From NCBI GenBank assembly GCA_020029475.1, contig JAIBJG010000017.1, positions 1 through 37,179 of the forward strand: DNA of 37,179 bases, written 5' to 3'. Made by a program: the position numbers and the translations under genes. Source of the stretch: Methanobacteriota archaeon. GTDB lineage: Archaea > Thermoplasmatota > Thermoplasmata > RBG-16-68-12. Shown piece by piece: positions 3,303-26,995 of this stretch (position 1 is the first letter of the stretch; every line of letters begins with the position of its first letter). A model generated the notes under the pieces. It worked only from the letters and a program-made list of their open reading frames with translations, was not told the origin of the DNA and ran no database searches.

Positions 3303-3414
3303 CGATCTCTCACGAGAACCACGGGGCCGGCATATACGCTTTCGCGGATGGGGAAAGAAAAGAGGGGAGCCCGTTACCCGGTGGGGCCGGGCTCCACCGA
3401 CGGAGGGAATGCGT

Positions 3415-3945: not shown

Positions 3946-4043
3946 GTGACTTCCCTCTGTCGCCCGTCCCATCGGGAGCCCGGCCTAGTTAAGGAACGGC
4001 TCCAAAAATCCGCCGTGGTTCCTACGGCGGTCAACGTCCTAGT

Positions 4044-4679
4044 TCAATCGGATGTCCTGAGCGCGATGGACACGCCGTCCCGGAGGGGGACGATGACGCT
4101 GATGAACCTCGGATCCGCCGCGAGCCTCTTGTTGTACTCGTGGATCACCTCGGTCTCCTTCGTCCGTCGCGCCTTCGCGACCCGCCCGGACCAGAGGACG
4201 TTGTCCGTGACGAGGAGGCCCCCCGGGCGGAGCTTCTGGATGCAATGCGGGAGGACTTCCACGTAATGCTGCTTGTCGATGTCGTTGAAGATGAGGTCGA
4301 ACGGCCCGTCGAGGCGGGGGAGGATGTCCAGTGCGGAGCCCACCTGAATCCGGACCCGCTTCGCGACGCCCGTCCTCTCGAAGTTCCTCCGTGCGATCGC
4401 CGCGGTCTCCGGGTTCCACTCCACCGTGACGAGCTCCCCTTCCGGCGGGAGGGCCCGTGCGAGCCACGTGCCCGAGTACCCGATCGCGGTGCCGAGCTCG
4501 AGGATCCGCTTCGAGCGGATCGACCGCGCGAGGATGTGGAGCAGGGAACCTTCCGCGGCCCCCACGATCGGCCACTCCTCCTTGCGCCCCTGATCCTCGA
4601 CGGCCCGCAGGGCGGGGTCCCCGCGGTTCGCGAGTCCGTCGATGTACGCCTCGATCTCGTCGAACACGATCCCGGGCAT
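4044..4679 (-). CDS. SAM-dependent O-methyltransferase (catechol/caffeoyl-CoA OMT family)
   Basis: 211-aa ORF; ILELGTAIGYSGTWLARALPPEGELVTVEWNPE, IFNDIDKQHYVEVLPHCIQKLRPGGLLVTDNVLWSGRV. Confidence 0.85.
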   Translation of the reverse strand: MPGIVFDEIEAYIDGLANRGDPALRAVEDQGRKEEWPIVGAAEGSLLHILARSIRSKRILELGTAIGYSGTWLARALPPEGELVTVEWNPETAAIARRNFERTGVAKRVRIQVGSALDILPRLDGPFDLIFNDIDKQHYVEVLPHCIQKLRPGGLLVTDNVLWSGRVAKARRTKETEVIHEYNKRLAADPRFISVIVPLRDGVSIALRTSD

Positions 4680-4686
4680 CCGCCAC

Positions 4687-4884
4687 CTACCGGGGATTCC
4701 CGGGGTCCAGACCCGTCGCCTGATCGTCCAGGGACTCCGCCCGCCGCTTCAGCCGCGCCGCCTTCTGTTCGAGCTGCGAGGCCTTCAGGCGCATGCTCGC
4801 GGCCCTCGCGCGGAACTTTGCCGCCTTCGCGCGATCCTTCAGTTCACGCTGGATATCCCGAGTCGCCTTCGGGGGTTCTTCCAT
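4687..4884 (-). CDS. Small hypothetical coiled-coil protein
   Basis: MEEPPKATRDIQRELKDRAKAAKFRARAASMRLKASQLEQKAARLKRRAESLDDQATGLDPGNPR; heptad-like Ala/Lys/Arg pattern. Confidence 0.5.
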   Translation of the reverse strand: MEEPPKATRDIQRELKDRAKAAKFRARAASMRLKASQLEQKAARLKRRAESLDDQATGLDPGNPR

Positions 4885-4942
4885 GGGCTCGTGAACGGAC
4901 CGGCTCGGAAAGGCTTTTCGCACCCGCGCCTTCCCCGGGACC

Positions 4943-6229
4943 GTGAAGGTGTACCTCGAGGCGTACGGCTGCACTCAGAACTACGGGGAGGCCCGCCTGA
5001 TGCAGCAGGCGATCGTCTCCCGCGGCCACGCGATCGCCCCGACCCCCGCGGAGGCGGACGCGAGCGTGATCGTCACCTGCACGGTGATCGAGACCACGGA
5101 GCGGAAGATGCTCCGGAGGATGCGGGCCCTCGCCGCGGAGGGGAAGCCCCTCGTCGTGGCGGGCTGCATGGCGGCCGCGCAGCGGGACCTCGTCCGCCGG
5201 GCCGTGCCGGAGGCGAAGCTCCTCCCGCCCCGGAAGTGGCCCCAGATCGTCGAGCTCCTGGGCGCGGGCACCGTCTGCGCGGAACGCGCCGCGGACACGG
5301 AGGCGGGGGAGTCCGCGTGGCGGGACGCGATCGTGCCGATCGCCCAGGGATGCGCGGGCCGCTGCACGTACTGCATCACCCGCGTCGCCCGGGGTCGCGT
5401 CCTGAGCTATGCGGTCGAGGACCTCGTCTCCCGGATCGAGGGCTACGTCGCCGCGGGGATCCGGGACATCAAGCTCACCGGGCAGGACACCGCCGCATAC
5501 GGGATGGACGCGGGGAGGACCCTCGCGGACCTCCTCGACGCCGTGGCGGGGATCCCGGGGGACTTCCGCGTCCGCGTGGGGATGATGGACCCCCTCACCG
5601 CGGCTCCCATCCTCGACGGGCTCGTGCGCGCGTACCGATCCCCGAAGGTCTACAAGTTCCTCCACCTCCCCGTGCAGAGCGGGGACGACGGAGTCCTGGC
5701 GGCGATGAGGCGGGAGTACACGGTCGCGGAGTTCGAACGGATCGTGTCCGCGTTCCGTCGGGCGATCCCGGACGTCTCCGTCTCGACGGACATCATCGTG
5801 GGGTTCCCGGGGGAGACGGAGGACGCATTCGGGCGCACGATGGACCTCGTCCGTCGCGTGCGCCCGGACAGCGTGAACGTCACCCGCTTCAGCGTTCGGC
5901 CCGGGACGCCCGCGGCGTCGATGCCGGGTCAGATCGTGGGATGGCGGGTGAAGGAGCGTTCGCGCCGGCTCACCCGGCTCCGGATGGCGATTTCCCGGGA
6001 GATCCACGAGTCCCACGTCGGGCGGGAGGTCCCCGTCCTCACGACGGAACCCGGGAAGGTGGGTACGACGCTCGCCCGCACGGACGCGTACCGCCAGGTC
6101 GTCCTCCCATCGGAGGAACCGATCGGCGAGTTCGGGATCGCACGGATCTTCGCGGGCCGGGAAGCGGACCTCATCGGAGAGTTGATTACCCGCCCGCGCT
6201 ACGTGCGGAGCGAGGGGATGGACCCGTGA
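4943..6229 (+). CDS. tRNA (N6-threonylcarbamoyladenosine(37)-C2)-methylthiotransferase (MtaB/CDKAL1 family radical SAM)
   Basis: MKVYLEAYGCTQNYGEARLM (UPF0004 domain), radical SAM CxxxCxxC in QGCAGRCTYCITRVARG, VGFPGETEDAF, C-terminal TRAM-like region. Confidence 0.92.
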   Translation: MKVYLEAYGCTQNYGEARLMQQAIVSRGHAIAPTPAEADASVIVTCTVIETTERKMLRRMRALAAEGKPLVVAGCMAAAQRDLVRRAVPEAKLLPPRKWPQIVELLGAGTVCAERAADTEAGESAWRDAIVPIAQGCAGRCTYCITRVARGRVLSYAVEDLVSRIEGYVAAGIRDIKLTGQDTAAYGMDAGRTLADLLDAVAGIPGDFRVRVGMMDPLTAAPILDGLVRAYRSPKVYKFLHLPVQSGDDGVLAAMRREYTVAEFERIVSAFRRAIPDVSVSTDIIVGFPGETEDAFGRTMDLVRRVRPDSVNVTRFSVRPGTPAASMPGQIVGWRVKERSRRLTRLRMAISREIHESHVGREVPVLTTEPGKVGTTLARTDAYRQVVLPSEEPIGEFGIARIFAGREADLIGELITRPRYVRSEGMDP

Positions 6230-7281
6230 AGTGCCCGAACTGCATGGGCCCGATCGGCCCCGACGACCGCACGTGTCCGTCGTGCGGTGCCGTCCTCGTC
6301 CTCGAGAAGAAACCGAACCGGCCCGAGGAGGAGAACGGATGGGCCGTCCGGCATCTCGCGAGCATCATGGGCCGGATCGGGTGCGCGGTCATGGTCGCGC
6401 AGAACGCCCTCGTCCTCGTCGCCTCGGCGTTCTTGATCCCGCAGGCGATCTCGTTCCTCAACGGACCCTCCCGGACCGTCGACCTCACCGGGATCGCGAC
6501 CCTGCTCTTCGTCGCGAACACGATCGACCTCGTGGGCCTCGGATTGATCTCCGTGGCCCTCATCGTCCTCGGGGTGGGCTCGATCTTCCTGCGCCGCCGG
6601 GACCCGTTCACGGAGGCGGAGGTGATGGTTCCGACGTCGACCGCGATCTTCCCGATGGCGGCGGGGCTCCTCGTGTTCCTCTGGGTCCTCCTCACCGCGG
6701 TGTGGAGAATCGGGGACCCCGCCCAGGCGGGGAGCACCGCCGCGGAGATCCTCGCGAACTACGCGATCCGCGGCCCGGCGGGCGTCCCTCCCGTGTTCGG
6801 GTCGATGATGACCCTCTGGGTCGTCGCGGCGATCGTCCTCGTCGCGGGATCCGGATGCCTGCGGATGTTCGTGCACCGACTCCCCGCGAAGATCGTCTCG
6901 GGCCGTCCGACGCGGCCCTCCTCGTGGCTCTACTTCGCGGTCGTGAATCTGATCGTCACGATCGGCATCGCGGCCTTCCCCCTCGGCATCGTGGCGTACG
7001 ACACGAGCGGCGGCCCGGCGCAGATCGCGTTCCTCACGTTCCTCGCGACGAAGCTCACGTTCGTCCCGCTCCTCGGCGCGTTCGCGTACTGGTCCCTCCT
7101 AACCCGGTTCGATGTGTTCGGGAAGCTCTCCCTCCTCGTCCCCGTCCTCAAGGCGATTCCCCGGCGGGCGTCGACCGCACCGGAGGGCGCCGCGACGATG
7201 CGCGGGGACCCCGGGATGCCGACCGCGTGGGCCCCGCCGCCGTCCGACGACGACATGGTCGGAATCGACCGGGTGAAGTGA
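6226..7281 (+). CDS. Zinc-ribbon multi-pass membrane protein
   Basis: GTG start overlapping the previous TGA (GTGA); MKCPNCMGPIGPDDRTCPSCGAVLVLEKK zinc ribbon followed by about 6 hydrophobic segments. Confidence 0.75.
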   Translation: MKCPNCMGPIGPDDRTCPSCGAVLVLEKKPNRPEEENGWAVRHLASIMGRIGCAVMVAQNALVLVASAFLIPQAISFLNGPSRTVDLTGIATLLFVANTIDLVGLGLISVALIVLGVGSIFLRRRDPFTEAEVMVPTSTAIFPMAAGLLVFLWVLLTAVWRIGDPAQAGSTAAEILANYAIRGPAGVPPVFGSMMTLWVVAAIVLVAGSGCLRMFVHRLPAKIVSGRPTRPSSWLYFAVVNLIVTIGIAAFPLGIVAYDTSGGPAQIAFLTFLATKLTFVPLLGAFAYWSLLTRFDVFGKLSLLVPVLKAIPRRASTAPEGAATMRGDPGMPTAWAPPPSDDDMVGIDRVK

Positions 7282-7329
7282 AACGCCCGCCTCGAATCCT
7301 TTAAGCGTCCCTTACCCTTCGGCGGCCCC

Positions 7330-7402
7330 AGCCCCGTGGGGTAGCGGTCAAGCCTGCGAGCCTTTGGAGCTTGCGACGCCAGTTCGAATCTGGCCGGGGC
7401 TA
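7330..7402 (+). tRNA. tRNA-Gln (anticodon UUG)
   Basis: AGCCCCG/CGGGGCT acceptor, CGAGC-CTTTGGA-GCTTG anticodon arm, GCCAG-TTCGAAT-CTGGC T arm; CCA not encoded. Confidence 0.92.
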
Positions 7403-7612
7403 TCCCTCCCTCCCTTGGCGGGGCTCCCGCTTCGAGAGTCGCGCGGCGATCCATACGAACACGATGAGCCAGAGGAGGATCGAGAGGGGCGCGAGGGACA
7501 GGATCTCGTACGAGCCCGTGAGGAGGGCGGCGAACGCCGCCATCCCGAGGATCGCGACGAGCCCGAAGACGAGGACGAGGAGCACCGCCCGCCGGCTGAC
7601 CCGGAGGTCCAT
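7400..7612 (-). CDS. Small two-TM membrane protein
   Basis: 70 aa MDLRVSRRAVLLVLVFGLVAILGMAAFAALLTGSYEILSLAPLSILLWLIVFVWIAARLSKREPRQGREG. Confidence 0.6.
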   Translation of the reverse strand: MDLRVSRRAVLLVLVFGLVAILGMAAFAALLTGSYEILSLAPLSILLWLIVFVWIAARLSKREPRQGREG

Positions 7613-7629
7613 CCCCGCCGCGATGGGTC

Positions 7630-7890
7630 GTGAACCTCTTAACCCGAGTGCCGATGGCGGGGACCGTGGACGTCCGCTGCCGCCTCAGGTTCGCCTATCG
7701 ATCGAAGGCGCGGGCGGAGAGGATCGCGCGGTCCCTTCGCGTGGACGACGAGGCCTTCATCACGACGACCGTGGACGGCCGCACCCTTGTCGCGGAGGCC
7801 GAGGCGGACTCGTTCCTCTCCTTGCTCCACACCTTGGACGACTACCTCGCATGCGTCGCGGTCGCGGAGAAGGTCCTACGAGGCGGGTAG
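7630..7890 (+). CDS. pcc1: KEOPS complex subunit Pcc1
   Basis: DVRCRLRFAYRSKARAERIARSLRVDDEAFITTTVDGRTLVAEAEADSFLSLLHTLDDYLACVAVAEKVL; typical Pcc1 size and pattern. Confidence 0.8.
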   Translation: MNLLTRVPMAGTVDVRCRLRFAYRSKARAERIARSLRVDDEAFITTTVDGRTLVAEAEADSFLSLLHTLDDYLACVAVAEKVLRGG

Positions 7891-9879
7891 GCCCTCCCGC
7901 ACCCGGACCGCGACCCCGCGATCGAAGTCGACCATCTCCTCGGGGTTCAGCACCGCCTGTCCCACGGCGGCGAGCCGGTCCTCCTGGTCCACAACGAGGA
8001 CCTCGTCCCTCGGACGGAGCTCCGGGTCCGCCTCGCGGACGAACTTCGCGAACACGTTCTTCCCCAGGCGGTTGAACTCCGCCGTCTCCGTCTCCACGAC
8101 GACCCGCAGCGTGGGCTTCGGGAACGCCCGGTGGAGGACCTTCCCGCCCTCGACCCGGAGGGAGAACAGCCCGTCGTGGGCCCGCATCGAGAGGACGTGT
8201 CTCCCGTCAACGATCACGTTCCGCACCCGCCCCGTATTCTTCGACCGCACGAGCTCCACCTGCCCCGCGAGGAGCGCGTCCGCGGCCCCGCGGCCGAACT
8301 GCATGTCGGAAGTCGCGCGCACCCGCTGCAGGACCCAGTCCAAGGGGTTCGGGTCCTCCCGCCGCTTCTCGAGCTCCGTGAGGGTCGCGGCCCCCTCCCA
8401 GAGCACGCCGAACTCGTACCCCGCCCCCGCCAGGAAGTGGCGGGCGAACACCTCGGAGGCCTCGAGCACCTCGAGGTCGAGCTGCTCCGGCACGAGGGAC
8501 TGGGAGTTCGGGTACATCTCGTCGAGCTCGATCGGGACGGGACCGAACGCGGACTTCACGAGGAAGTGCGCGTTGCACACGGCCTCCACCTTCTCCATCG
8601 CGGGGCGGTAGTGCACCATGTACGGCTTCCCGTCCTCCGGGAACATCACGAGGGTCCGCCTCCGGGGCGGGGAGTACCGCTCCTGGAGGCGCTGACGGAA
8701 CCGGTACAGGATCGGGCGGTACACGGTCTCCGGACCCGTGTAGAAGAGGGCGTTGTGCCGGCTGACGGGCTCGAACCGCTCGAGCCACTGCGCGTGCCTC
8801 CGGAGCTCCTTCAGGCCGTCCAGGAGGGCGGGGTGCGCGCGGCACCGCCGCTCCACGAGCTCCCAGAGCTCCCCCGCCTTGATCGCCTGCCGGACCCGCC
8901 GGATCTCCGCGAAGGACACGTACAGGTTGTGCTCCGCGAGGGCGCGCTCGTTCCCCTTCAGTTCCCCAGGGGAGATCTGGGTGCACACGGGGCACTCGCA
9001 GTTCGCGAACTCGAGCTCCGCGGCGTGGCGGGTGCCGTCCACGAACATCATCCGGCCCGCCCGCGCGTACTTCGCGTACGAGGCGGAGTCGAAGAGGTCG
9101 CACCCGAGGAGGGCGGCGAGGGCGAACACCATCGGGTGCCCCGCCCCGAACAGATGGACGGGGAGGCGGGGACGGAGCCCTTGCTTCGAGGCGACAATAA
9201 CCTTCACAAGGTCCTGGAAGCGGTACGATTCCATCAGGGGGACCACGCCGCCGATTGCCGCGATGTCCACGTCGAGATTCGAGAGCTCCTGCGCGCATCG
9301 CGTCCGCTCCTCGGGATGGATGCCTCCCTGGACCGCACCGACGAGGGCGAACCCCGGTTCAGCATTCGCGGCCTTCACCCCAACCGCCTCCGCGGCCCGC
9401 CTCAGGGTCTCGTCGACATCCGCAGCGGCGCGGGTCTGCGAGTGCTCGGGCTCGGAGAACACGTCCAACATCGTGACGAGGTCGGATCCGATCCTCGCCT
9501 GGTACTCGACGATCTCGCGGTTCGAGACATCGACGTCTCCATAGACGTGCTGTTGGAACGCGCCGGAGTCCGTCATGATCGGCCCCGGAAATCCGAGGTG
9601 GTCGTGGAGGTCCACATCCTTCTGCTCCTTGGACGTGTACAGGATGTACGCGTTCGTGATCACGACCTCTGCGCCGAACCGCTGCGCCATCTCTGCCGGG
9701 GGAATCAGGACCTTGTTCGGATTCACGACAGGCATCAGGGCGGGGGTCCGCACGGGGCCGTGGCGGGTCTCCAGGAGCCCGAGTCGGCCGAGTCCGTCCC
9801 GGTCGATGACCTCGAACACGGCGGGCCATCCGGACCTCCCGATAATAGGATTTGCGTGACGGCCTCCGGATTCGGTCAT
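7876..9879 (-). CDS. tgtA: Archaeosine tRNA-guanine(15) transglycosylase with C-terminal PUA domain
   Basis: TRHGPVRTPALMPVVNPN, MTDSGAFQQHVYG, ANCECPVC zinc motif, C-terminal RNVIVDGRHVLSMRAHDGLFSLRVEGG PUA-like segment. Confidence 0.93.
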   Translation of the reverse strand: MTESGGRHANPIIGRSGWPAVFEVIDRDGLGRLGLLETRHGPVRTPALMPVVNPNKVLIPPAEMAQRFGAEVVITNAYILYTSKEQKDVDLHDHLGFPGPIMTDSGAFQQHVYGDVDVSNREIVEYQARIGSDLVTMLDVFSEPEHSQTRAAADVDETLRRAAEAVGVKAANAEPGFALVGAVQGGIHPEERTRCAQELSNLDVDIAAIGGVVPLMESYRFQDLVKVIVASKQGLRPRLPVHLFGAGHPMVFALAALLGCDLFDSASYAKYARAGRMMFVDGTRHAAELEFANCECPVCTQISPGELKGNERALAEHNLYVSFAEIRRVRQAIKAGELWELVERRCRAHPALLDGLKELRRHAQWLERFEPVSRHNALFYTGPETVYRPILYRFRQRLQERYSPPRRRTLVMFPEDGKPYMVHYRPAMEKVEAVCNAHFLVKSAFGPVPIELDEMYPNSQSLVPEQLDLEVLEASEVFARHFLAGAGYEFGVLWEGAATLTELEKRREDPNPLDWVLQRVRATSDMQFGRGAADALLAGQVELVRSKNTGRVRNVIVDGRHVLSMRAHDGLFSLRVEGGKVLHRAFPKPTLRVVVETETAEFNRLGKNVFAKFVREADPELRPRDEVLVVDQEDRLAAVGQAVLNPEEMVDFDRGVAVRVREGLPAS

Positions 9880-9925
9880 CCCGCCACAATCGTTATTCGG
9901 ACCGCCCGCCTCCTGTCTCGATGGA

Positions 9926-10693
9926 ATGCTGCGGAGCACGTTCGTGCACGTCCCCTGGGTCGGGTACCCGACGGAGATGCGGCTGTGGCGGGAGGGCGTG
10001 CGGACCTGGGACGATTTTCTGCAGGGGCGTCCCCGCCTCCGCGTCGGCGACGGTCGTCGCCGGGAGATCCAACAGGAGATCGAGCGATCGAACTCTCGGT
10101 TGAATGCGGGCGACTACCGGTACTTCGCGCGAAGGCTGAGGCCCCGCGATGCGTGGCGGGCGATTGGGGAGTGGGGGGACCGCGCCGCCTTCCTCGACAT
10201 CGAGACCACCGGGCTCCGGAGGAACCGACATCACGTCACCGTGATCGGACTCAACGACGGGAGGCGCACCCGCCAGTTCATCGAGGGCGTGGACCTGGAC
10301 GAGTTCCCCGCCGCGATCGCGAAGGCCCCGATGCTCGTCACGTTCAACGGCTCCCGTTTCGACCTCCCGTTCCTCCAGTCGTGGTGGCCCCAGCTCCGGT
10401 TCGAGCAGCTCCATGCGGACCTCCTGTACCCGCTCCACCGCCTCGGCCTGTCCGGGGGGCTCAAGGCAATCGAATCCGAACTCGGGGTCGAGCGCACGGA
10501 GGAGACGAGGGACCTGCGCGGACACGACGCGGTCCGATTGTGGCGGCGGTTCGAGCGGGGGGACGAGGCCGCCCTTGAGGTGCTTCTCGAGTACAATCGG
10601 CAGGACGTGGAGAACCTGCGCCCGCTGATGCGATACGCATACGCCGCGCTACGGGCTCGATGCTTCGGCGGGCGACCCCCTCGCCTTCCCTGA
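9926..10693 (+). CDS. YprB-type RNase H-like 3'-5' exonuclease
   Basis: FLDIETTGLRRNRHHVTVIGL (Exo I DxE), LVTFNGSRFDLPFL (Exo II), LLEYNRQDVENL (Exo III YxxxD). Confidence 0.82.
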   Translation: MLRSTFVHVPWVGYPTEMRLWREGVRTWDDFLQGRPRLRVGDGRRREIQQEIERSNSRLNAGDYRYFARRLRPRDAWRAIGEWGDRAAFLDIETTGLRRNRHHVTVIGLNDGRRTRQFIEGVDLDEFPAAIAKAPMLVTFNGSRFDLPFLQSWWPQLRFEQLHADLLYPLHRLGLSGGLKAIESELGVERTEETRDLRGHDAVRLWRRFERGDEAALEVLLEYNRQDVENLRPLMRYAYAALRARCFGGRPPRLP

Positions 10694-14232: not shown

Positions 14233-15266
14233 CGGATTGGGAACCGGAGCACGGCGCCGAGGCCGCCTAGCCCCTCGAGCTTCTTCCCCGCCTCATGGCG
14301 GGAGCTGACGATCACGACCCGCCCCCGGGCGGACTCGACTCTGCGCATGAGGTCCTCGACGGCGAGGTCTTTCACCTTCGCGTCCGTGACGAGAAGAGTC
14401 TCCACGGCGCCCGCGTCCACCGCGGTCCCCACCTCGTCGGGTCCGTACGCGTACAGGCCACCCTTCGCGATCTCTTCGAGGAGCGTCTCCACGAGGCGGG
14501 TCTCCTGGGCGACCCGGGTCTCCTCGAGGATCTTCGCGCCGAGCCCCGAGCGCATCGCCTCCTGGATCCCCGCCATCCCCGCCTGGCTCGTCCCGTGGGA
14601 CCGGATCTTCGCCGCGAGCTCCGGCTTCTTCTCCCGGACGAACTTCGCGAACTCCTCCCGCTCGAACCCGGGTCCGACGACGAGGAGGGCGGGGCCGACC
14701 TCCATGGAGTTGAGCTTCGACAGGATCTCCGTGAAGTACGCAGTGCGCGTGTCCGACCCGGGGAACATCTTGCCGTGATGGTCCGCCCGGATCACCGCGA
14801 CCTCCCGGATCCCCATCTGGCGGACCTCCGCGATCAGGGCCTCCTCGTCGTCAATCGCGAGAATCGCGACCTGGGGCCGCTCCGTCGCGTCGACGGCCTC
14901 CTTGATCCGGCGGAGGTGGTGGTCCCGCCACACATCCTTCACGAGCGTGATGTCGTCGCCGATCGTGAGGTTCAGGGTGTGGTGCCGGCCGAGGTCCTGC
15001 GGCCCTTCCACGATCACCCCCGTGATCCGGAGCCGGTCCGAGAAGTCCTGGTACTCCGTCTGGTCCACCTTGATCCCGAGCTTCACGCGGACCTTCTCCC
15101 CGCGCTCCGGCCGGAGCTTGTCCGTCGCGGCCTCCTCCCGCCGGTACGTGAACGCCCGCACGAGGTCGCCGGGCTCGACGAGGTTGTGGAGGTGCCAGAG
15201 GTCATCCGCGTTCTGCACCTGGAGATGGATCGCTCCCTCCCTCGGGTCCTGATGTAGGACGCGCAT
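14229..15266 (-). CDS. pelA: mRNA surveillance protein pelota
   Basis: 345 aa; LVEPGDLVRAFTYRREE, VVGPGFEREEFAKFVREKKPEL, SHGTSQAGMAGIQEAM, VIVSSRHEAGKKLEGLGGLGAVLRFPI. Confidence 0.94.
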   Translation of the reverse strand: MRVLHQDPREGAIHLQVQNADDLWHLHNLVEPGDLVRAFTYRREEAATDKLRPERGEKVRVKLGIKVDQTEYQDFSDRLRITGVIVEGPQDLGRHHTLNLTIGDDITLVKDVWRDHHLRRIKEAVDATERPQVAILAIDDEEALIAEVRQMGIREVAVIRADHHGKMFPGSDTRTAYFTEILSKLNSMEVGPALLVVGPGFEREEFAKFVREKKPELAAKIRSHGTSQAGMAGIQEAMRSGLGAKILEETRVAQETRLVETLLEEIAKGGLYAYGPDEVGTAVDAGAVETLLVTDAKVKDLAVEDLMRRVESARGRVVIVSSRHEAGKKLEGLGGLGAVLRFPIR

Positions 15267-15591: not shown

Positions 15592-16824
15592 CTACCGTAG
15601 CACACCGTATCCGATGAGCCGCCACTTCCCGCCGATCCGGCGGCTCACCGCGAGCCGTTGGCCGGGTTCCGCCGAGACCGGGATCTTCAGGTTCATGTCC
15701 GCCATGTTCTCCCGCGCGCTCGAGACGACGCCCACCGTCGTCGCGGTGCCGACGGAGATCATCAGGGGCTCCCCGGTCTTGATATCCTCCACCTTCAGGT
15801 CCTCCGCGGTCCCGACGACCCGCTCCAGCAGGTGGAACTCCGCGGAGATCCGGGAGAGGACGGGCGGGAGGGTCCCCGGCGGGCCGAGGACCCGGCCCAC
15901 CAGGGAGTCCGACTTCGTCAGGTAGGGGTCGAGGTTCGTCCCGACGGCGATGAGGCCCCCCGGCCGCACCTCCTTCTTCGAGTGGCCCCCGGTGTGGAGG
16001 GACCGGACCGTCGTCTGCAGGTCCACCCACTCCGTCTTCGTGCCCGTCCCGGCCTGTCGCCCGGGCACGATCGCGATCTCGTCGCCGACCTTCAGCTTCC
16101 CCTGGATCAGGGAGCCGCCGACGACCCCGCCCGCAAGCTTGTCCGGCGGCGCCCCGGGCTGATTCACGTCGAAGGACCGCGCGATGAACATCCGGGCCGG
16201 CTTCGTCTCGTCGAACTTCCGGGTAAGGATCACCTGCTCGATCGTCATCATCAACATGTCCGCGTTCACCTCGTGGTGCGCGGACATCGGGATGATCGGG
16301 GCCTTCTCCGCGATCGTGCCCTTCACGAACTCGCGGATCTGGCGCAGGTTCTCCCTCGCCTGCTCCTCCGTCACGATGTCGATCTTGTTCTGGACGATGA
16401 TGATCTTCTCGACGCCGATGATCGAGAGGGCCATCAGGTGCTCCTTCGTCTGGGGCTGGGGGACGTCCTCGTTCGCGGCGATCACGAGGAGGGCCCCGTC
16501 CATGATCGCGGCCCCGCTGAGCATCGTCGCCATCAACGTCTCGTGGCCCGGGGAGTCCACGAAGCTCACGGCCCGCAGGAGCTCCGTCTTCGCGCCGTCG
16601 TTCTTGCATACCTCGTTCGTCGAGTAGCACTTCGGAGGCTCTTCGTTCGGGCACCGATAGAACGCGGCGTCCGCGTACCCGAGGCGGATCGAGATTCCTC
16701 TCTTGATCTCCTCGGAGTGGCGGTCCGTCGACTCCCCCGTGAGGAGCTTCACGATCGCGGTCTTCCCGTGGTCGACCTGCCCGACGGTTCCGATGTTCAC
16801 GGACGGCTGGACGGGGACCTTCAC
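15592..16824 (-). CDS. eif2g: Translation initiation factor aIF2 subunit gamma
   Basis: NIGTVGQVDHGKTAIVKLLTGESTDRHSEEIKRGISIRLGYADAAFYRC...SFVDSPGHETLMATMLSGAAIMDGALLVIAANE...QNKID. Confidence 0.97.
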   Translation of the reverse strand: MKVPVQPSVNIGTVGQVDHGKTAIVKLLTGESTDRHSEEIKRGISIRLGYADAAFYRCPNEEPPKCYSTNEVCKNDGAKTELLRAVSFVDSPGHETLMATMLSGAAIMDGALLVIAANEDVPQPQTKEHLMALSIIGVEKIIIVQNKIDIVTEEQARENLRQIREFVKGTIAEKAPIIPMSAHHEVNADMLMMTIEQVILTRKFDETKPARMFIARSFDVNQPGAPPDKLAGGVVGGSLIQGKLKVGDEIAIVPGRQAGTGTKTEWVDLQTTVRSLHTGGHSKKEVRPGGLIAVGTNLDPYLTKSDSLVGRVLGPPGTLPPVLSRISAEFHLLERVVGTAEDLKVEDIKTGEPLMISVGTATTVGVVSSARENMADMNLKIPVSAEPGQRLAVSRRIGGKWRLIGYGVLR

Positions 16825-16897
16825 AGGGGATGCTCCAGACGCGGGGTCGCTCTAACGGGAGGTTCGATAAAAGGGTTTGCGGCGATGGAGGGCGACC

Positions 16898-17284
16898 TCA
16901 CTTCTTCTCCGTGAACGCGTCCTCGATGGACTTCGGCCCGCGAACGATGATCTTGAGATTCAACTGCAGGGTGTCGGGAGAGATCGTGTTCCCCCGGACG
17001 GTCTTCTTCTTCCGCATCCCGTGTCGGGGCGCGTGGAACCCGACGCCGCCGGACAGCAGGATCCGGCGCCGCCTCGGGCCCGGGAGGTCCCGGCGCATCG
17101 GGAAGCCGTCTTTGTCGCTTCCGCCCGTAATCGAGAGCTTGTACCCCGGAAGGCCCACGTACAGGCCGTCGATCTCCTCGCCGAGCTTCCGGCCCACCAA
17201 GGCGTTCGCGAACTGGCCGGAGATGTCCTTCTTGTACGTCTTCCCGCTCTTCGGGTCTGCGATCACCGCTTTGAACTCGGCCAT
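16898..17284 (-). CDS. rps6e: Ribosomal protein eS6
   Basis: MAEFKAVIADPKSGKTYKKDISGQFANALVGRKLGEEIDGLYVGLPGYKLSITGGSDKDGFPMRRDLPGPRRRRILLSGGVGF. Confidence 0.96.
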   Translation of the reverse strand: MAEFKAVIADPKSGKTYKKDISGQFANALVGRKLGEEIDGLYVGLPGYKLSITGGSDKDGFPMRRDLPGPRRRRILLSGGVGFHAPRHGMRKKKTVRGNTISPDTLQLNLKIIVRGPKSIEDAFTEKK

Positions 17285-18664: not shown

Positions 18665-21600
18665 TTGGCCTGGCGGAAGGGGAGGAGCGGGCTGGAATTG
18701 GTGTTGGGCAGGGCTCTCTTTGCGGTCGCCTTGGCCCTCGTCTTGGTCCCCACGGCCCCGATGGCGGTCGCGCAGGGTTCGACCGCGTCGACGGACCTAG
18801 CACTTTCGCACTCCGAACTCCCGCAGGGCGCCCCGGTGCGCATCGAGCCCTCCCCGATCCGTTCGCAGGGGGAGAAGGACCTCGCGACCGTGATCATCGC
18901 GACGACGAACGTCGCGGACCTCGCGAACGCGGTCTCCCGCCTCACCGGCGAGCAGGTCCCGTCCCCAAGGTCGCAGGGGTTCGGCACGCCGCTGCTCACG
19001 CTTCCACGGTGGATGATCGAGGAGATTCGCGGGCTGCCGACGACGATGTCCGTGCTCGACTACGTGCCGCCGACGAAGCAGATGCCGGAGGACCCGGACA
19101 CGCGGTCCCTCCCGCAGACCGGGATCCTGAACTGGAACGCGACGATCAACCACAAGGCGCCCCTCGCGTGGGCCCGCAACATCACGGGGGACGGGGTGAA
19201 CGTCGCGATCGTCGACGACGGCGTGGACTTCGGGCACCCCGACCTCCAGGGGACGATGGCGCGGGTCACGGACCCCGCCTCGCCGTACTCCGGGTGGCCG
19301 ATCGCGTTCGACCCGTTCTCGATGGGCGCGTACCTCCGGGCGGGCGGGGACCCGAGGGGCACGTGGTACGCGGACACCTCCTCCACGGACTCGAACGTCA
19401 CCCACACGTTGCGGGTGGACGGGAAGAACGACTTCTGGACGGACGGCTCCGAGCTCATCGCCACGGACCCCAGCAGTGACATCGGCGTCCCGGACTTCGA
19501 CCTCGTCACCCTCTACGTGACGCAGGACGCGGCGAACTGGTACGTCGGGTTCTCGAGCCGCGCGAACCACACGACGATGGCGTTCGAGCTGTACGTGAAC
19601 ACGACGTCCGGCGGGGGCGCTCCTGCGGACCCCCTCGGGAACTACATGATTCCGATGGCGGGCCATCTCCCGGAGTTCGCGGTGTACATGGTCCACAACG
19701 GCCTCCAGCCGCCCGGGCGGTACGACCTGAACGACACGATCCCTAGCGCCCTCGTGTACAAATGGAACCCGGGGGGCGGGGCATGGGACTCCCCGGTGGA
19801 CGTCACGGACCCGGCCGTCGGCGGGCAGTTCTCGTATGGCGGGTACAAGTTCAACGTCGGGGAGGGCTTCGTGGAGATGGGCCTCCCGAAGGCGTACCTC
19901 GGGGACCCGCAGTCGATCTCCCTCCAGCTCTTCACGGTCGGGGACAACCGGAGCCACGCCCAGGACTCCGTGTACTCGGACCTGAACGTCGCGTTCCCGA
20001 ACCCGGACTGGACCTCCGCCCCGACGACCCTGTCCGCGATGACGATCGTGGGCCCCGGGTACTGGCGGCACACGTACACCCGGAGCGACGACACCGTCGG
20101 CGGACAGCCGAACGTCCAGTTCACCTGGCCCGTCCAGTACATCCCGACGGGGACGAGCCGGAGCGGCCAGTACCTGTTCGGGGACCTTCCGGACAAGAAC
20201 TACCCGCTCACGCGGATCCTCGTCGTGGACGAGGCGATGCCCGGCGTCTACGACACCGTGTACGCGGACCTCGACCACAACAAGGACTTCCACAACGACA
20301 AGGCGATCAAGCGGTACGGGAAGTACGACGCCTCCGGGTTCTGGCACCCGCCGACATGGCCGGGGATCGGGACGATCTTCGACGAGACCGTGTGGGCGGA
20401 CACGTTCGACCCTGCGGGCGGGGTCGCCGCCCTCGCCTGGTCCCCCGATGGCCGCTGGCTCGCGACGGGAGGCCGGGACCACGTCGTGATCGTCTGGGAC
20501 ACGACGACGTGGCTCCCCGCCGCGACCCTGACCGGCCATCATGGCCGCGTGGACGCGGTCGCGTGGAACCCCGCGAGCACCCGCCTCGCGGCTGCCCACG
20601 ACGACGTCGGAGGGCGCACACAGTACTCCGTGGACGTGTGGCAGGCCCCGTCGTGGTCCCTGGACCGGTCGTACACGATCCACACCGGGGCGGTGAACGA
20701 CCTCACGTTCAACCCCGCGGGCACGCGGATCGCGACCGCATCCTCCGATGGCACCGCGAAGGTCTTCGACCTGGGGACACAGGCGGTCACACTCCTCGCC
20801 CATACCTCCGCGGTGCTCGGGATCGCGTGGTCCTCGACGAACACGATCGCGACCGTCGGCGCGAACGGCGAGCTGCGCCTGTGGTCCGCGGCGGGGGCGC
20901 TCCTCCGGACGTATGTCTACGGGTCCGCGCTCAACGACGTCGCCTGGCATCCGTCCGGCGCATTCCTGGCGGCGGCCTCCGATGACGGGAACGTCGTGAT
21001 GTTCGAGGCCGCGACGGGGAACCGCAACCCGCAGTCCGGCCACTTCGGCAACGCCGTCCTCCACGTCGGGTTCAACGGGACCGGGGACCGGCTCGTCTCC
21101 TCCTCCCGCGCGACCCAGCGGTCGGACCCCACTCTCGTCACGTGGACCGTGACGGACTGGAACAACTTCGCGTTCCTCGACCAGCGCTTCGGGGCCCACG
21201 CGGACGCGACGACCGGCTTCGCGGTCCCCGCCGCGGAGTACGCCCCGGGAGGCGCGAGGATCGCGAGCGGCGCGATGGACGCCACGGTGAAGACGTGGAG
21301 CCCGGCCCTCGTCCAGGACCGCCTCCTCCTCGGGCACCGGATCGGCTCGAGCGACACGACCCGGTACAACGGGGGCGACGGAATCGCGGACGCCTCCGGA
21401 GGGATGGTGTACTTCATCGCGCAGAACAGGACGGAGCTGCCGTACTCGGCCCGGTTCGTCGCGAACCAAGGGGACAACGTCGCGAACCTCGTCCCCGCGA
21501 ACGGCACCCTCGTCGCGTTCATGGGGGCGTTCGATGCGACCGCGAAGCACGGGACCCTGATGGCCTCGAGCATCGTCGGCCGTGCGATGACGCGGTTCTT

Positions 21601-24600
21601 CGACCCGACGACGATGAAGGCGCCCTCCCCGCCCCAGGTGTACGGGATCGCCCCGAACGCGAAGCTGATCGCGGTCGCGGACATCTACACGACGACGATC
21701 TTCGACGGCTGGCGGTTCGCGGTCGAGGGGTACGACGGCATCCCCGGGACCGGGGACGAGGCGCAGATCGTCGCGAACTCCTTCGGCTTCAGCTCCACGT
21801 TCGAGGACGGCTGGGACTTCTACTCCCGGTTCGCGGACTGGATCTCCACCCAATACGCGGGGGGGAAGAGCCTGTTCACGGTGAGCGCGGGGAACGACGG
21901 GAACGGGTACGGGACCGTCACGACCCCCGCCGCGTCCGCGGGCGTCGTCACCGCCGGCGCGTCGACGGACTTCTTCTACCGGTTCTGGGCGGGCCTCGAG
22001 AAGGGGCCGAGCCCGTCGTACGGGGACGTCGTCCCGTTCTCGAGCCGCGGGCCCAGCGCCCTCGGCCGGCCGGACCCCGACGTCCTCGCGACGGGGCGGA
22101 TGTCCGTGGGAGCGACCCCGCTGAACATGGTCGTCCCGTCGAACGGCGCGGTCGCGAGCGAGCTGTGGTCCGGCACCTCCCTCTCGTCCCCGATGACCGC
22201 GGGGATCCTCGCCCTGATCTACGAGGCGTACCGGAAGGCCCACGGCGTCTACCCGGACGGGGAGACCGCGAAGTCGATCCTGATGAGCGGCGCGGACGAC
22301 GTGAACTACGACGTGTTCTCCCAGGGGGCCGGGTTCGCGAACGCGGACCGCGCGACGCGGATCGCCCAGAGGCTCGACGGCGTGTCCGTGACGCCGAGCG
22401 TGTGGACCCCCGGCGAGTATCGGGGGCGGGCGTACGAGGCGTTCGTCTCCCTGATGTCCCCCGGACAATCCCGCCAGGGGACGTTCACGGTCCGGAACGC
22501 GAACCGGACCGCGCCCGCGACCTGGACCCTCTCCGACTCCGTGTTCCGGCGCACGGCGGCAATCGAGTACGGGTTCCTGACCCCCGTGGACGGCTCCGCG
22601 AACCCGATCGACGCGTGGCACGCTCTCCTCGCGGCGAGCCCGGCGGCGGACTTCTACGGACCCGGGGTGTACCGCGTGACGCCCGCGGGCCTCACCCTCC
22701 TGGCGCCCGTGACGCCATCGGACTGGATCAACGCGGACCTCGTCCGGATCACGATCTCCGCGCCCCAGACCGCGTTCGACCCCGGCGGGGACGGCACGAA
22801 CGATTACCGGTACATGGTCGACGTGTACGACTGGACAGAGACGGACTGGTCCACGCCGATCCCGGACACGACGGGATTCGCGGACCTGAACCGGATCTCC
22901 ATCAACCACCCGGAGGCGAACGTGTTCGCGGCGACGGTCCACAACGGCCCGATCCGGAGCCATGACGGCCTCGTGTTCGGGACCCGACTCTTCGGGACCG
23001 GGCTCGGCGGGCTCCCGCTGCGCGCGAAGATCGAGTTCTTCACGAAGACGGACTGGAACTGGCTCTCCCTCTCCGCCCCCCAGGTCACCGCCCCTGGGAA
23101 CGGGGGCACGACGTTCACCGCGACGATGGCGGTCCCCGCGAGCACGCCGATGGGCACGTACCAGGGGCAGATCACGCTCCGCGGTCGGCAGACGGCGACG
23201 GACCGATACACCGTGGGCGCGAGCGGCGGGCAGTGGATCCGCCTCTCCCGCTTCGACACGAACCCGATCACGGTGCAGGTGAACTCCGTCCCGGTCCCGG
23301 CGGGCAGCCTCCAGACATACCCCGCCGCGGGCCTGATCTGGATCAGCAGCCCGCTGACCCCGGGGGACCTCGTCGAGGTCCAGTACGACTACTACGATCA
23401 CGTCACGATCCCCGTAGCGGTCTCGATCGGCGCCACGGGCCCCCGGTTCTCCTTCGGCGGTCTCGCGGCGGGCCAGGACGATCTCTTCGGAAACTTCGTG
23501 GGCCCCGGGTACGGGAACGGGGGCCAGGCGGGGGACTTCCGATTCTACTACACGGACATCGCGAACGAAGGCCTCTTCCGGCAGGCGCGGGGGCTGAAGT
23601 TCTATCTCGACGCCCACTGGGACCGGACCCGCACGGACCTCGACGTGTTCGCGTTCGGCACGGGAGGCGCTGCTCTGATGGACGTCTCCTCGTACGACCC
23701 GAACCGGTACGGGCCGTTCCTCGTTGGCCGGAACAACGGCGGGAGCGAGATCACGTCGAGCGTGTTCACGACGACGGGCGGGGCGGAGGAGATCGTCGCG
23801 CCCGGGGTCACCGGGGGCCTGAACATCGTCGCGGTCCACGCGGTCCGGATGAACGGGACCGCGGACGAAGAGAGCGTGACGGGATCCGCGGGGCTCCTCA
23901 CCGTGAACCCCTCCGACATCAACATCGTCACGAACCAGCTTGCGGGGAGCCGGGCGTTGAGCCTCTCGTCGAGCGCGACGTGGCCGGGCCTCGGCGCCGT
24001 CTCCGCGGGGCCGTCCGCGCCCCAGCGGTTCGTGGACCTCCACATCCAGCAGGACGCGATCGAGGGGGGAGGATTCACGGACCTCCTCGCGAAGGGCTCC
24101 TTCACGTATCGGGTCCTCGTCCAGCGGAGCGCCCTGATCTTCGACGTCCACATCACGAGCGACGCGGCGTCCACGTCGAGGCCGTGCCCGGACCTCGACC
24201 TCGGCGTCTTCCTGGACGGGAAGGGGCCCGGGAACGTCCCGGACGGCGTTGCGCAGACCGCGGAGTTCGTCGCGCAGACCGCGGACTCCGACGCGAACGA
24301 GGAGGTGAAGCTGATCAAGCCCGTCGTCGAGGACGACCCCGACACCCCGACGGTCGACGAGTCCGTCGTCGGGGCGCCGTACCTCGTGAAGGTCCTCGGG
24401 TTCGTGGTGCCGTGGTCCCCGTACGGGACGTTCAACATGGACCTCACCCTCGTCCAGGGCCAGGGCTTCTCCGTGAGCGGAACGTCCTCCACGCCGATCC
24501 CGAGCTACGCGCGGTCCACCCTCACCCTCACGTGGAACCTCCCGGGGAGCACGGGGGACGGCGCCCTCCTTGGCGCCCTGTACCTAGGGCCCTCGACCGC

Positions 24601-26995
24601 CCCCCTCACCCTCCTGATCCCGATCCAGCTCGTCGTGGACCGGTCCCCGCCCGTGTTCACGAGCTTCTCCGTCGGCGGGCCCGGCGTCCTCGTGGACGAC
24701 CGGGACGGACGGACCGCGAACGGCCGGCGCCCCCTGGTCGTCGCCGTCCTCGGGGACCCGGAGCGCGGGGAGCTCGACCCCGCCGCCACGCGGATCTCGA
24801 TCGACGGGGAGGACGTCACGTCCAGGGCGTTCGTCGACATCCCGTGGGGCCCGAGCCCCCAGGGTCTCCAGGGCCGATGGACCGGGACCGTGACGTACGA
24901 GCCCACCCTCGACCTCGACGAGGGCGTCCACACCGTGCGGCTCGACTTCGCGGACCTCGCGGGGAACGCCGTCGAGGTGACGAAGACGATCGTCGTCGAC
25001 ACGGAGGCGCCCGCCCTCGTCCTGGACGGACCCGCCCTCCGGTTCACGGTTCTCTCGACCGCCACGATCTCTGGCGCCACGGAGCCCGGGGCGACGGTCT
25101 CGATCGGCTCGTCCATCCTCGTGGCGGGGGCGGACGGCACGTTCTCGTTCTCCCTGTCCCTCGCGGATGGACGGAACGAGGTGAGGGTGCGGGCCGCGGA
25201 CTGGTTCCACCTGGACGCGCTCGGGGTGGACCTTCCGGGCAACGAGGCCGTCGCGGACCTCACGATCATCCGGGACACGGTGAGCCCGGCGGTCACCGTA
25301 ACCGCCCCCGCGAGCCCCACTCCCTCGGACCTCGCGGAGATCCGGGGACGCGTCACGGAATCGATCTCCTCCACGGAGATGTACGATCCGTCGACGGTCC
25401 TCCTCACCGTGGGTGGCCGCCGAGCGTGGGTCCTCGCGGACGGCTCCTTCTCCATTAGCATGTCCCTTGTCGAGGGGGTGAACACGATCTCCATCGAGGC
25501 GGTGGACCTCGCGGGGAACTTCGCCACCAGATCCACCGTGGTCGTGCGAGACTCCCTCGCCCCCTCCCTCGCGATCGACCCGGTCCCCGTCGAGACCGGT
25601 TCTCCGTCCCTGAACGTGACGGGCACGACGGAGGCCACGGCGCTCGTGTTCGTGAACGGGTTCGTCGTGCGGCCCGCCTCGGACGGGACGTTCCACCGCG
25701 TCGTGACCCTGAGCGGCGGGCAGAACGCGATCGTCGTCCGCGCCGAGGACTCTGCGGGGAACACCGCCGAGCGCACGTTCACGGTCTCGTACGTGTCCGC
25801 GGGCGGCGGGGGCGTCTCCTTCGGAGCGTGGGTGGCGATCGGGCTCGTCCTTGCCATCCTCGCCGGTCTCGGAATCGCGTTCCTATTCGGACGGATGTCC
25901 CACGAGGAGACCCCGACTCCCGACCCAACCGCGATGGAAGACACCGGCCCGGAGCCCGGCGCGGCGGCCGTTGCGGAGACCCCCGCCCCGCCCCCCGTGT
26001 TTCCTCCCGTGGAACGGCCTGCCGAACCTCCAGCACCCGCGGCCCCAACGATCGAAGAGCGGGCGGCGAAGATCGAAGCGGCCTACGTGGAGGGCCGGAT
26101 CACGCGAGAAGTCTACGAGCGGAACGTCCGAGCCCTGGGACGCGAGCCCACCCCGGAGCCGACCGCGCCGGAGCCCGCCCCCGCGCCCATGCCGACTCCG
26201 GAGGAACGCGCGGAGCGGCTCCGCACCGCGTTCGAGCAGGGGCGCATCTCCCGCGAGGCGTATGAGTCGAACCTCGCGAAGCTTGGCCTCGCCCCGCCCG
26301 CGCCGACGCCCCCACCTGCCGAGGAACAAGCAGCGAGGTTGGAATCCGCGTTCCGGTCGGGCCGGATCACGGAGGCCGCATACCGCGCGAACCTGGCGCG
26401 CCTCGGAATCGCGCCGCCCGAGCCCCCGGCCCCCCCACCCGTCGAGGATGAGAAGGTCGCCCGCCTCGAGCGGGCGTACCGGGAGGGGAGGCTCTCGAGG
26501 GAGGCGTACGAGGCGAACCTCGCCCGCGTCGCGGGCACGCCGGCGCCGCCTCTCCCGCCCCCGGAGGATCTGCGTGCCGCAAAGCTCGAGACTGCGTACC
26601 GGGAGGGACGGATCACGGAGGAGACGTATCGCGCGAACGTCGCCCGCCTCGGCCTGGCTCCCCCGCCACCGCCTTCGCAGACGCTCGGGGAGGCGGAGCG
26701 CGCCGCGATGCTCGACCGGGCGTACCAGGAGGGGCGCATCTCGCAGGACATGTACCGTGCGAACCTCGCGAAACTCGCGCATCGGACTCCCACCGAAGCG
26801 CCGGACAAGATCGTGCAGCTACGGACCGCATTCGTTGAGGGGAGGATCGACCGCCGGCTGTTCGCGGAGAACCTCGCGCGGACCCTCGGCGTGAGCGGGG
26901 ACACGCGCGCGGCGAACCTCGTGACGGCCTTCGTGGCGGGGCGGCTCGACGCGGACCTCCTCGAAAAGAACCTGCGGCGCCTCCAGCAAGGCTGA
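18665..26995 (+). CDS. Giant cell-surface S8 (subtilisin-like) peptidase with internal DOMON/CBM-like segment and WD40 propeller, C-terminal Ig-like domains, TM helix and eight SHOCT-like repeats
   Basis: 2776 aa; signal peptide; Asp motif VAIVDDGVDFGHPDLQGT (D184), His motif KHGTLMASSIVGRA (H962), oxyanion region SAGNDG, Ser motif LWSGTSLSSPMTAGILALI (S1172); WD repeats about residues 586-890; TM VAIGLVLAILAGLGIAFLFG; C-terminal tandem repeats. Confidence 0.92.
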   Translation: MAWRKGRSGLELVLGRALFAVALALVLVPTAPMAVAQGSTASTDLALSHSELPQGAPVRIEPSPIRSQGEKDLATVIIATTNVADLANAVSRLTGEQVPSPRSQGFGTPLLTLPRWMIEEIRGLPTTMSVLDYVPPTKQMPEDPDTRSLPQTGILNWNATINHKAPLAWARNITGDGVNVAIVDDGVDFGHPDLQGTMARVTDPASPYSGWPIAFDPFSMGAYLRAGGDPRGTWYADTSSTDSNVTHTLRVDGKNDFWTDGSELIATDPSSDIGVPDFDLVTLYVTQDAANWYVGFSSRANHTTMAFELYVNTTSGGGAPADPLGNYMIPMAGHLPEFAVYMVHNGLQPPGRYDLNDTIPSALVYKWNPGGGAWDSPVDVTDPAVGGQFSYGGYKFNVGEGFVEMGLPKAYLGDPQSISLQLFTVGDNRSHAQDSVYSDLNVAFPNPDWTSAPTTLSAMTIVGPGYWRHTYTRSDDTVGGQPNVQFTWPVQYIPTGTSRSGQYLFGDLPDKNYPLTRILVVDEAMPGVYDTVYADLDHNKDFHNDKAIKRYGKYDASGFWHPPTWPGIGTIFDETVWADTFDPAGGVAALAWSPDGRWLATGGRDHVVIVWDTTTWLPAATLTGHHGRVDAVAWNPASTRLAAAHDDVGGRTQYSVDVWQAPSWSLDRSYTIHTGAVNDLTFNPAGTRIATASSDGTAKVFDLGTQAVTLLAHTSAVLGIAWSSTNTIATVGANGELRLWSAAGALLRTYVYGSALNDVAWHPSGAFLAAASDDGNVVMFEAATGNRNPQSGHFGNAVLHVGFNGTGDRLVSSSRATQRSDPTLVTWTVTDWNNFAFLDQRFGAHADATTGFAVPAAEYAPGGARIASGAMDATVKTWSPALVQDRLLLGHRIGSSDTTRYNGGDGIADASGGMVYFIAQNRTELPYSARFVANQGDNVANLVPANGTLVAFMGAFDATAKHGTLMASSIVGRAMTRFFDPTTMKAPSPPQVYGIAPNAKLIAVADIYTTTIFDGWRFAVEGYDGIPGTGDEAQIVANSFGFSSTFEDGWDFYSRFADWISTQYAGGKSLFTVSAGNDGNGYGTVTTPAASAGVVTAGASTDFFYRFWAGLEKGPSPSYGDVVPFSSRGPSALGRPDPDVLATGRMSVGATPLNMVVPSNGAVASELWSGTSLSSPMTAGILALIYEAYRKAHGVYPDGETAKSILMSGADDVNYDVFSQGAGFANADRATRIAQRLDGVSVTPSVWTPGEYRGRAYEAFVSLMSPGQSRQGTFTVRNANRTAPATWTLSDSVFRRTAAIEYGFLTPVDGSANPIDAWHALLAASPAADFYGPGVYRVTPAGLTLLAPVTPSDWINADLVRITISAPQTAFDPGGDGTNDYRYMVDVYDWTETDWSTPIPDTTGFADLNRISINHPEANVFAATVHNGPIRSHDGLVFGTRLFGTGLGGLPLRAKIEFFTKTDWNWLSLSAPQVTAPGNGGTTFTATMAVPASTPMGTYQGQITLRGRQTATDRYTVGASGGQWIRLSRFDTNPITVQVNSVPVPAGSLQTYPAAGLIWISSPLTPGDLVEVQYDYYDHVTIPVAVSIGATGPRFSFGGLAAGQDDLFGNFVGPGYGNGGQAGDFRFYYTDIANEGLFRQARGLKFYLDAHWDRTRTDLDVFAFGTGGAALMDVSSYDPNRYGPFLVGRNNGGSEITSSVFTTTGGAEEIVAPGVTGGLNIVAVHAVRMNGTADEESVTGSAGLLTVNPSDINIVTNQLAGSRALSLSSSATWPGLGAVSAGPSAPQRFVDLHIQQDAIEGGGFTDLLAKGSFTYRVLVQRSALIFDVHITSDAASTSRPCPDLDLGVFLDGKGPGNVPDGVAQTAEFVAQTADSDANEEVKLIKPVVEDDPDTPTVDESVVGAPYLVKVLGFVVPWSPYGTFNMDLTLVQGQGFSVSGTSSTPIPSYARSTLTLTWNLPGSTGDGALLGALYLGPSTAPLTLLIPIQLVVDRSPPVFTSFSVGGPGVLVDDRDGRTANGRRPLVVAVLGDPERGELDPAATRISIDGEDVTSRAFVDIPWGPSPQGLQGRWTGTVTYEPTLDLDEGVHTVRLDFADLAGNAVEVTKTIVVDTEAPALVLDGPALRFTVLSTATISGATEPGATVSIGSSILVAGADGTFSFSLSLADGRNEVRVRAADWFHLDALGVDLPGNEAVADLTIIRDTVSPAVTVTAPASPTPSDLAEIRGRVTESISSTEMYDPSTVLLTVGGRRAWVLADGSFSISMSLVEGVNTISIEAVDLAGNFATRSTVVVRDSLAPSLAIDPVPVETGSPSLNVTGTTEATALVFVNGFVVRPASDGTFHRVVTLSGGQNAIVVRAEDSAGNTAERTFTVSYVSAGGGGVSFGAWVAIGLVLAILAGLGIAFLFGRMSHEETPTPDPTAMEDTGPEPGAAAVAETPAPPPVFPPVERPAEPPAPAAPTIEERAAKIEAAYVEGRITREVYERNVRALGREPTPEPTAPEPAPAPMPTPEERAERLRTAFEQGRISREAYESNLAKLGLAPPAPTPPPAEEQAARLESAFRSGRITEAAYRANLARLGIAPPEPPAPPPVEDEKVARLERAYREGRLSREAYEANLARVAGTPAPPLPPPEDLRAAKLETAYREGRITEETYRANVARLGLAPPPPPSQTLGEAERAAMLDRAYQEGRISQDMYRANLAKLAHRTPTEAPDKIVQLRTAFVEGRIDRRLFAENLARTLGVSGDTRAANLVTAFVAGRLDADLLEKNLRRLQQG
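20420..21335 (+). other. WD40 seven-bladed propeller insert, coding sub-region of the giant subtilase
   Basis: Seven repeats: GGVAALAWSPDGRWLATGGRDHVVIVWD; VDAVAWNPASTRLAAAHDD..SVDVWQ; VNDLTFNPAGTRIATASSDGTAKVFD; VLGIAWSSTNTIATVGANGELRLWS; LNDVAWHPSGAFLAAASDDGNVVMFE; VLHVGFNGTGDRLVSSS..LVTWT; AVPAAEYAPGGARIASGAMDATVKTWS. Confidence 0.85.
26054..26992 (+). repeat. Eight tandem SHOCT-like helical hairpin repeats (protein-level) with Pro-rich linkers
   Basis: AAKIEAAYVEGRITREVYERNVRALG; AERLRTAFEQGRISREAYESNLAKLG; AARLESAFRSGRITEAAYRANLARLG; VARLERAYREGRLSREAYEANLARVAG; AAKLETAYREGRITEETYRANVARLG; AAMLDRAYQEGRISQDMYRANLAKLA; IVQLRTAFVEGRIDRRLFAENLARTLG; AANLVTAFVAGRLDADLLEKNLRRLQQG. Confidence 0.88.

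Follow-up and report, generated by a model that had tools for sequence, protein, structure and literature searches.

What happens to a subtilisin-type (S8) serine protease when a complete WD40 propeller stands between its catalytic aspartate and its catalytic histidine? The question is raised by the gene for a giant protease of 2776 residues from a Methanobacteriota archaeon of the order RBG-16-68-12. The gene lies in a window of 37,179 nucleotides, which is the whole stretch of DNA analysed (positions 1 to 37,179 of contig JAIBJG010000017.1, assembly GCA_020029475.1). An original prediction, made from the sequence of the window, had described a surface-anchored enzyme with a seven-repeat WD40 propeller nested inside its S8 domain, and had suggested that the propeller could serve to recruit substrates or to gate the active site. 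This nested architecture is real and conserved, and the insertion of a domain into S8 is in itself already known. A role of the propeller as a substrate exosite is the explanation considered here to be reasonably likely.

An S8 catalytic domain in two halves

A single unbroken frame holds D184, H962, N1077 and S1172, in that order. The original prediction had placed D184, H962 and S1172 in one uninterrupted frame with about 780 residues between Asp and His; the distance is 778 residues, and the oxyanion residue N1077 is added to the set. The Pfam model Peptidase_S8 (PF00082) matches above its cut-off with an E-value of 1.4e-28, and the match follows the order of the profile and is split, positions 1-27 lying at the Asp and positions 54-286 C-terminal to the propeller. 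The catalytic domain is of the S8 type and not the alpha/beta-hydrolase peptidase domain of prolyl oligopeptidase (S9). Loss of catalytic residues, as in Csp-type pseudoproteases, is found only in a paralogue clade and not in the window protein.

The catalytic role proposed for D184 is borne out by homologues, profile alignments and predicted secondary structure. In a profile of relatives with a short Asp-His loop, the Asp segment aligns with residues 16-43 of subtilisin BPN', and the Asp of the window protein aligns with theirs. The Asp and the His-to-Ser segments of the same profile also align with 9ues and 3afg. Since the Asp and His of the short-loop relatives are aligned in this way to subtilisin and to archaeal subtilases in the PDB, D184 is identified by homology as the catalytic Asp, equivalent to that of subtilisin. 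A profile of the catalytic part of the family matches archaeal subtilases and tripeptidyl peptidase II (TPP2; 3lxu, 3.2e-10); SubHal-type subtilases head the PDB profile matches, and TPP2 is also among the best. In the predicted secondary structure, as in subtilisin, the Asp directly follows a strand (E32-36), the His opens a helix (H815-824) and the Ser occupies an early position in a long helix (H1024-1046). An alternative catalytic Asp C-terminal to the propeller was ruled out by alignment with the short-loop relatives.

The propeller and its place in the loop

The seven consecutive repeats read between Asp and His are recovered by the Pfam WD40 model (PF00400, 5.8e-32), and pooled propeller models cover about residues 580-879. 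The blades lie at residues 582-625, 626-673, 674-713, 714-753, 754-793, 795-845 and 848-891. An AlphaFold model was built for residues 148-1245 from 32 sequences, with a predicted local distance difference test score (pLDDT) of 77 and a predicted template modelling score (pTM) of 0.67. In this model the WD40 segment is predicted to fold as a seven-bladed propeller, which Foldseek aligns with the seven-bladed structure 7bie over 308 columns at a template modelling (TM) score of 0.92 (target-normalised). The top 50 Foldseek matches are propellers only, so the S8 core is neither supported nor refuted by this search. Both in structure and in sequence, the propeller closely matches prokaryotic WD40 proteins such as PkwA (5yzv), which differs in carrying its propeller on a Ser/Thr kinase rather than nested in a protease. 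The predicted strand order assigns a separate set of four strands to blade 1 and to blade 7, and the ring therefore seems to be closed without a swapped strand; such a closure would suit an insertion whose ends lie together.

The insert comprises more than the propeller. It also includes a domain predicted to be all-beta (about residues 234-459) and a loop (residues 500-581 and 892-955), both found in propeller-less relatives. The domain has no significant match in Pfam or PDB profiles, which leaves its first identification, DOMON or CBM9, unsupported; for this reason it is named only beta-sandwich-like. The loop itself has no PDB match among the alignments listed.

The alignments form a ladder of three steps. 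The shortest relatives, from archaea, Anaerolineae and other bacteria, have 207-241 residues between Asp and His; further relatives add the beta-sandwich-like domain; and in the window protein and its orthologues the propeller follows that domain, flanked by the conserved blocks VYADLDHNKDFHNDKA and GDGIADASGGMVYFIA. These blocks on both sides indicate that the propeller sits within an older loop, and the length of the loop in the shortest relatives indicates that it joined a loop enlarged beforehand. The expectation that Asp and His are usually separated by tens of residues is thus correct for classical subtilisins and fails for this family. The border of the insertion is clean: propeller proteins read FYDPA, propeller, GHxxGSxDYTRYNxGDG, whereas the sister protein reads YFDFYNAATGEYNYSRYDAGDG. 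On these alignments, the WD40 ring is a genuine and conserved insertion in a loop of the S8 catalytic domain.

Distribution and conservation

Homologues with and without the propeller were sought in 61 related genomes and in a scan of 85,462 species genomes. Orthologues of the same plan, twelve in all, came to light in 12 other genomes. These stem from several independent assemblies, including one single-contig chromosome, which rules out both chance and misassembly. Asp and His are 747-903 residues apart in the orthologues where both residues can be placed. The propeller version occurs in 13 of 400 genomes of the class, all belonging to one order (four families). Two genomes outside that order encode sister proteins (L040/L079 and L041/L080) that have the same beta-sandwich-like domain and loop and lack the propeller, with Asp-His distances of 466 and 559 residues. 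In the tree, the 13 propeller proteins form one supported group (99/86), to which these two are sister. No relatives were found in viral contigs, and a viral origin has no support.

Neither the window protein nor any of its 12 orthologues has lost a catalytic residue in the parts that each contains, and seven blades are retained in nearly all of them. In the orthologue of genome G001 (L029:4831-10722, minus strand), about 37 residues spanning one blade are gone and six blades are left, which may be a genuine loss or the collapse of a repeat during assembly. The orthologue of genome G002 (L028) is split over two frames around 3485-3736, ahead of the propeller, either truly or through a sequencing error; the break is given as before the Asp, and a break at the start of the propeller disturbs the dN/dS comparison of this protein.

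In the comparison with L029, the ratio of nonsynonymous to synonymous substitution rates (dN/dS) comes to 0.26 in the propeller and 0.25 in the second catalytic half, within a span of 0.21-0.31 for the parts compared. The similarity of the first two values indicates that the propeller is maintained. The propeller is looser in the comparison with the more distant L030, at 0.56 against 0.26. Mean identity to the window protein, over 11 sequences, is 40% in the propeller and 66% in the second catalytic half, a pattern as expected of a recognition surface.

A candidate substrate exosite and its alternatives

The signal-like segment, the transmembrane segment and the SHOCT-like tail suggest an extracellular enzyme with a C-terminal anchor, in agreement with the surface-anchored topology first proposed. 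What is observed is the order of segments, the intact catalytic residues, the conservation in one archaeal order, the insertion site, the existence of propeller-less sisters and, in the model, the fold of the propeller. From these, we infer with reasonable likelihood a membrane-anchored extracellular S8 subtilase whose nested propeller serves as a substrate exosite. The chain would enter the catalytic fold as far as the catalytic Asp, exit via the enlarged Asp-His loop, which bears the beta-sandwich-like domain and then the complete seven-bladed propeller, and return to supply His, oxyanion Asn and Ser. D184 would join the triad in space, and the propeller, presumably tethered near the substrate cleft, could capture or select protein substrates, which might also bring about partial gating.

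Three observations weigh against this role. The AlphaFold model is only of medium confidence, the weaker conservation of the propeller is also compatible with a passive spacer, and paralogues with nothing but the short loop carry the same catalytic motifs without a propeller.

Among the alternatives, a steric gate or filter survives best, although it is judged unlikely. In such an arrangement, as in prolyl oligopeptidase, the propeller would cover the active site and let through nothing but peptides or unfolded chains, and the four strands predicted for each of blades 1 and 7 parallel that enzyme. However, the peptidase folds are unrelated, a propeller hanging from a loop may not cover the cleft, and proteins are the expected targets of a giant surface protease. 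A purely structural or assembly role of the insert, serving oligomerisation or spacing at the cell surface without binding substrate, is distinctly improbable. In its favour, WD40 rings often act as scaffolds, conservation is lower in the propeller than in the remainder of the protein, and the propeller-less sisters of other orders are otherwise alike; yet the insert occupies the Asp-His loop rather than the long C-terminal region, and nearly all orthologues retain its seven blades. Related WD40-bearing paralogues without the catalytic Ser bring to mind a neutral or decaying insertion, or a pseudoprotease, but this is very improbable, as every readable catalytic residue is intact in the 13 genomes of the window clade and the dN/dS values against L029 are low throughout the parts compared. 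The fear that two genes had been joined by an assembly error, or that the true Asp lies C-terminal to the WD region, can practically be dismissed, since no point in its favour was found, the same frame recurs in several independent assemblies and the Asp of the relatives aligns with subtilisin BPN'.

Relation to known systems

In the order and motifs of its catalytic residues, the window protein resembles S8A subtilases with an enlarged Asp-His loop, namely the pyrolysin group and tripeptidyl peptidase II, in which a large loop lies between Asp and His. The family shares this trait, already in its short-loop members and far more so in the window protein. To our knowledge, no WD40 propeller has been described in either of these groups. 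No description of a WD40 propeller inside an S8 domain was found in the open literature; the search covered neither subscription papers nor architecture databases.

Prolyl oligopeptidase likewise combines a seven-bladed propeller, in which blades 1 and 7 are not Velcro-closed, with a serine peptidase (PMC5446394). It differs in its alpha/beta-hydrolase fold, its non-WD40 propeller and its cytosolic location, and the likeness would be convergent at most; it may nevertheless be taken as the closest working analogue, in a different fold. Insertion of a domain into S8 is known from the clostridial Csp subtilases, where a beta domain (jellyroll) is inserted in the subtilase domain and the dead CspC and CspA work with active CspB (PMC12880746). 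These differ from the present protein in having no propeller, and here only the paralogue clade is dead.

In Ca. Angelarchaeales (order RBG-16-68-12), a group described partly from soils at Angelo, proteases and peptide transporters abound (PMC9038741). A lifestyle based on protein and peptides is assumed for related Thermoplasmatota of soils and sediments (PMC9038741, PMC9123169). If the architecture is as proposed, an S8 protease bears a whole WD40 ring nested in its catalytic fold and thereby shares the plan of prolyl oligopeptidase, to which it is unrelated. Because relatives exist for every stage (short loop, added beta-sandwich-like domain, added propeller and, among dead paralogues, a second site), deletions could test directly how nested domains grow. 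Such enzymes may escape domain callers and structure pipelines built on the expectation that Asp and His are close to each other.

A second insertion site in catalytically dead paralogues

WD40 repeats also separate Asp from His in a distinct group of paralogues, to which the genome of the window contributes one (L061, contig C28). Here the propeller lies inside the beta-sandwich-like domain, between the WYFGF and PDFA blocks. In the 18 WD40-bearing members of this group, the Ser position holds Asp, His, Glu or Val, never Ser, and the oxyanion Asn is mostly Asp. A model of one member, L100, contains a seven-bladed propeller (TM score 0.93 on 7bie).

A single origin of all loop propellers was considered and rejected. 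The tree requires two changes, the two insertion sites differ, and the approximately unbiased (AU) test of both propeller groups as one clade gives p 0.026, a modest and weak rejection given long branches and groups named after the tree had been seen. A WD40 frame of 472 residues from a related genome matches the propeller of the giant protease more closely (4.9e-20) than do the propellers of the dead paralogues (2.1e-8 at best). Propellers thus entered the Asp-His loop at two places, probably independently.

At seven loci of the paralogue group (L051, L053, L089, L061, L117, L127 and L067), an S8 gene with the Ser motif lies just upstream on the opposite strand; at L061, for example, the divergent gene 1625-7255 (minus strand) adjoins 7050-10379 (plus strand). 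The propeller-less sisters L040 and L041 have a neighbour of this kind as well, as do two dead propeller-less relatives, L091 and L097. At many other loci of the group no such gene lies within 1500 bases, and on several contigs the sequence stops too early to decide. It is possible that the divergent S8 gene and the dead or propeller-less family member form a functional pair. As a tentative extension, in a single family of archaeal subtilases the Asp-His loop may have received two WD40 propellers at different sites, giving an active protease with a propeller exosite in the window group and, in the other, a dead protein with its propeller inside the beta-sandwich-like domain. The latter might act as sensor or regulatory partner of active subtilases, often divergently encoded, in a protease-pseudoprotease surface system in archaea.

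Several variants of the plan were also seen. The dead paralogue L127 (3199-11829) has a stretch of kelch repeats (PF24681, 3.1e-59) inside its WD40 region, a propeller within a propeller within a protease. Relatives without WD40 repeats can likewise lack catalytic residues (L042, L045, L058, L083, L084, L091, L095 and L097). In L101 (7532-14098), the WD40 repeats are C-terminal to the catalytic domain and not within the Asp-His loop.

Gene layout and neighbourhood

Table 1. Segments of the giant S8 protease gene in window coordinates, with the related Ser-less paralogues in their own coordinates.
Feature	Position	Strand	Remarks
Whole gene, giant S8 protease, 2776 residues	18665..26995	+	TTG start; open frame reaches back to 18584
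Signal-peptide-like hydrophobic segment, residues 8-39	18686..18781	+	Hydropathy peak 2.37
S8 catalytic domain, first half, with putative catalytic Asp D184 (19214-19216)	19112..19300	+	Pfam S8 profile 1-27; Asp kept in all orthologues reaching there and in shorter relatives
Beta-sandwich-like domain in Asp-His loop, residues 234-459	19364..20041	+	48-80% conserved in orthologues; all-beta in model
Family loop N-terminal to propeller, residues 500-581	20162..20407	+	Common to propeller-less relatives
Predicted WD40 propeller, seven blades, residues 582-891	20408..21337	+	Pfam WD40; blade list; Foldseek 7bie TM 0.92
Family loop resumed C-terminal to propeller (GDGIADASGGMVYFIAQN), residues 892-955	21338..21529	+	Common to propeller-less relatives
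S8 catalytic domain, second half: H962 (21548-21550), oxyanion N1077 (21893-21895), S1172 (22178-22180)	21530..22384	+	Pfam S8 profile 54-286, E 3.5e-28; motifs intact in 13/13 clade A sequences
Large C-terminal region without known family	22385..24964	+	No Pfam match
Ig-like / Glucodextran_B repeats	24881..25789	+	Pfam
Transmembrane segment, residues 2379-2413	25799..25903	+	Hydropathy peak 2.76
Pro-rich tail with repeated SHOCT-like units, C-terminal to transmembrane segment, presumably cytoplasmic	25982..26992	+	DUF1707 SHOCT-like 5.6e-11
Ser-less WD40-bearing S8 paralogues	L061:7050-10379 (own genome, contig C28), L060, L051-L053, L067, L089, L092-L094, L102, L103, L117, L118, L122, L125, L127, L128		

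The region N-terminal to the catalytic domain has no Pfam match, and no propeptide family is claimed for it. Elsewhere in the window, long open frames without a Pfam match lie at 84-2018, 2542-4263, 8131-10575, 14295-15254 and 15658-16911 (plus strand). The protease gene is flanked by genes for cysteinyl-tRNA synthetase (divergent) and aconitase; these neighbours offer no obvious partner and do not support an operon context, so that the gene seems to stand alone. Guanine-cytosine content at third codon positions is 0.84-0.98 along the whole gene, which shows that the frame is coding throughout.
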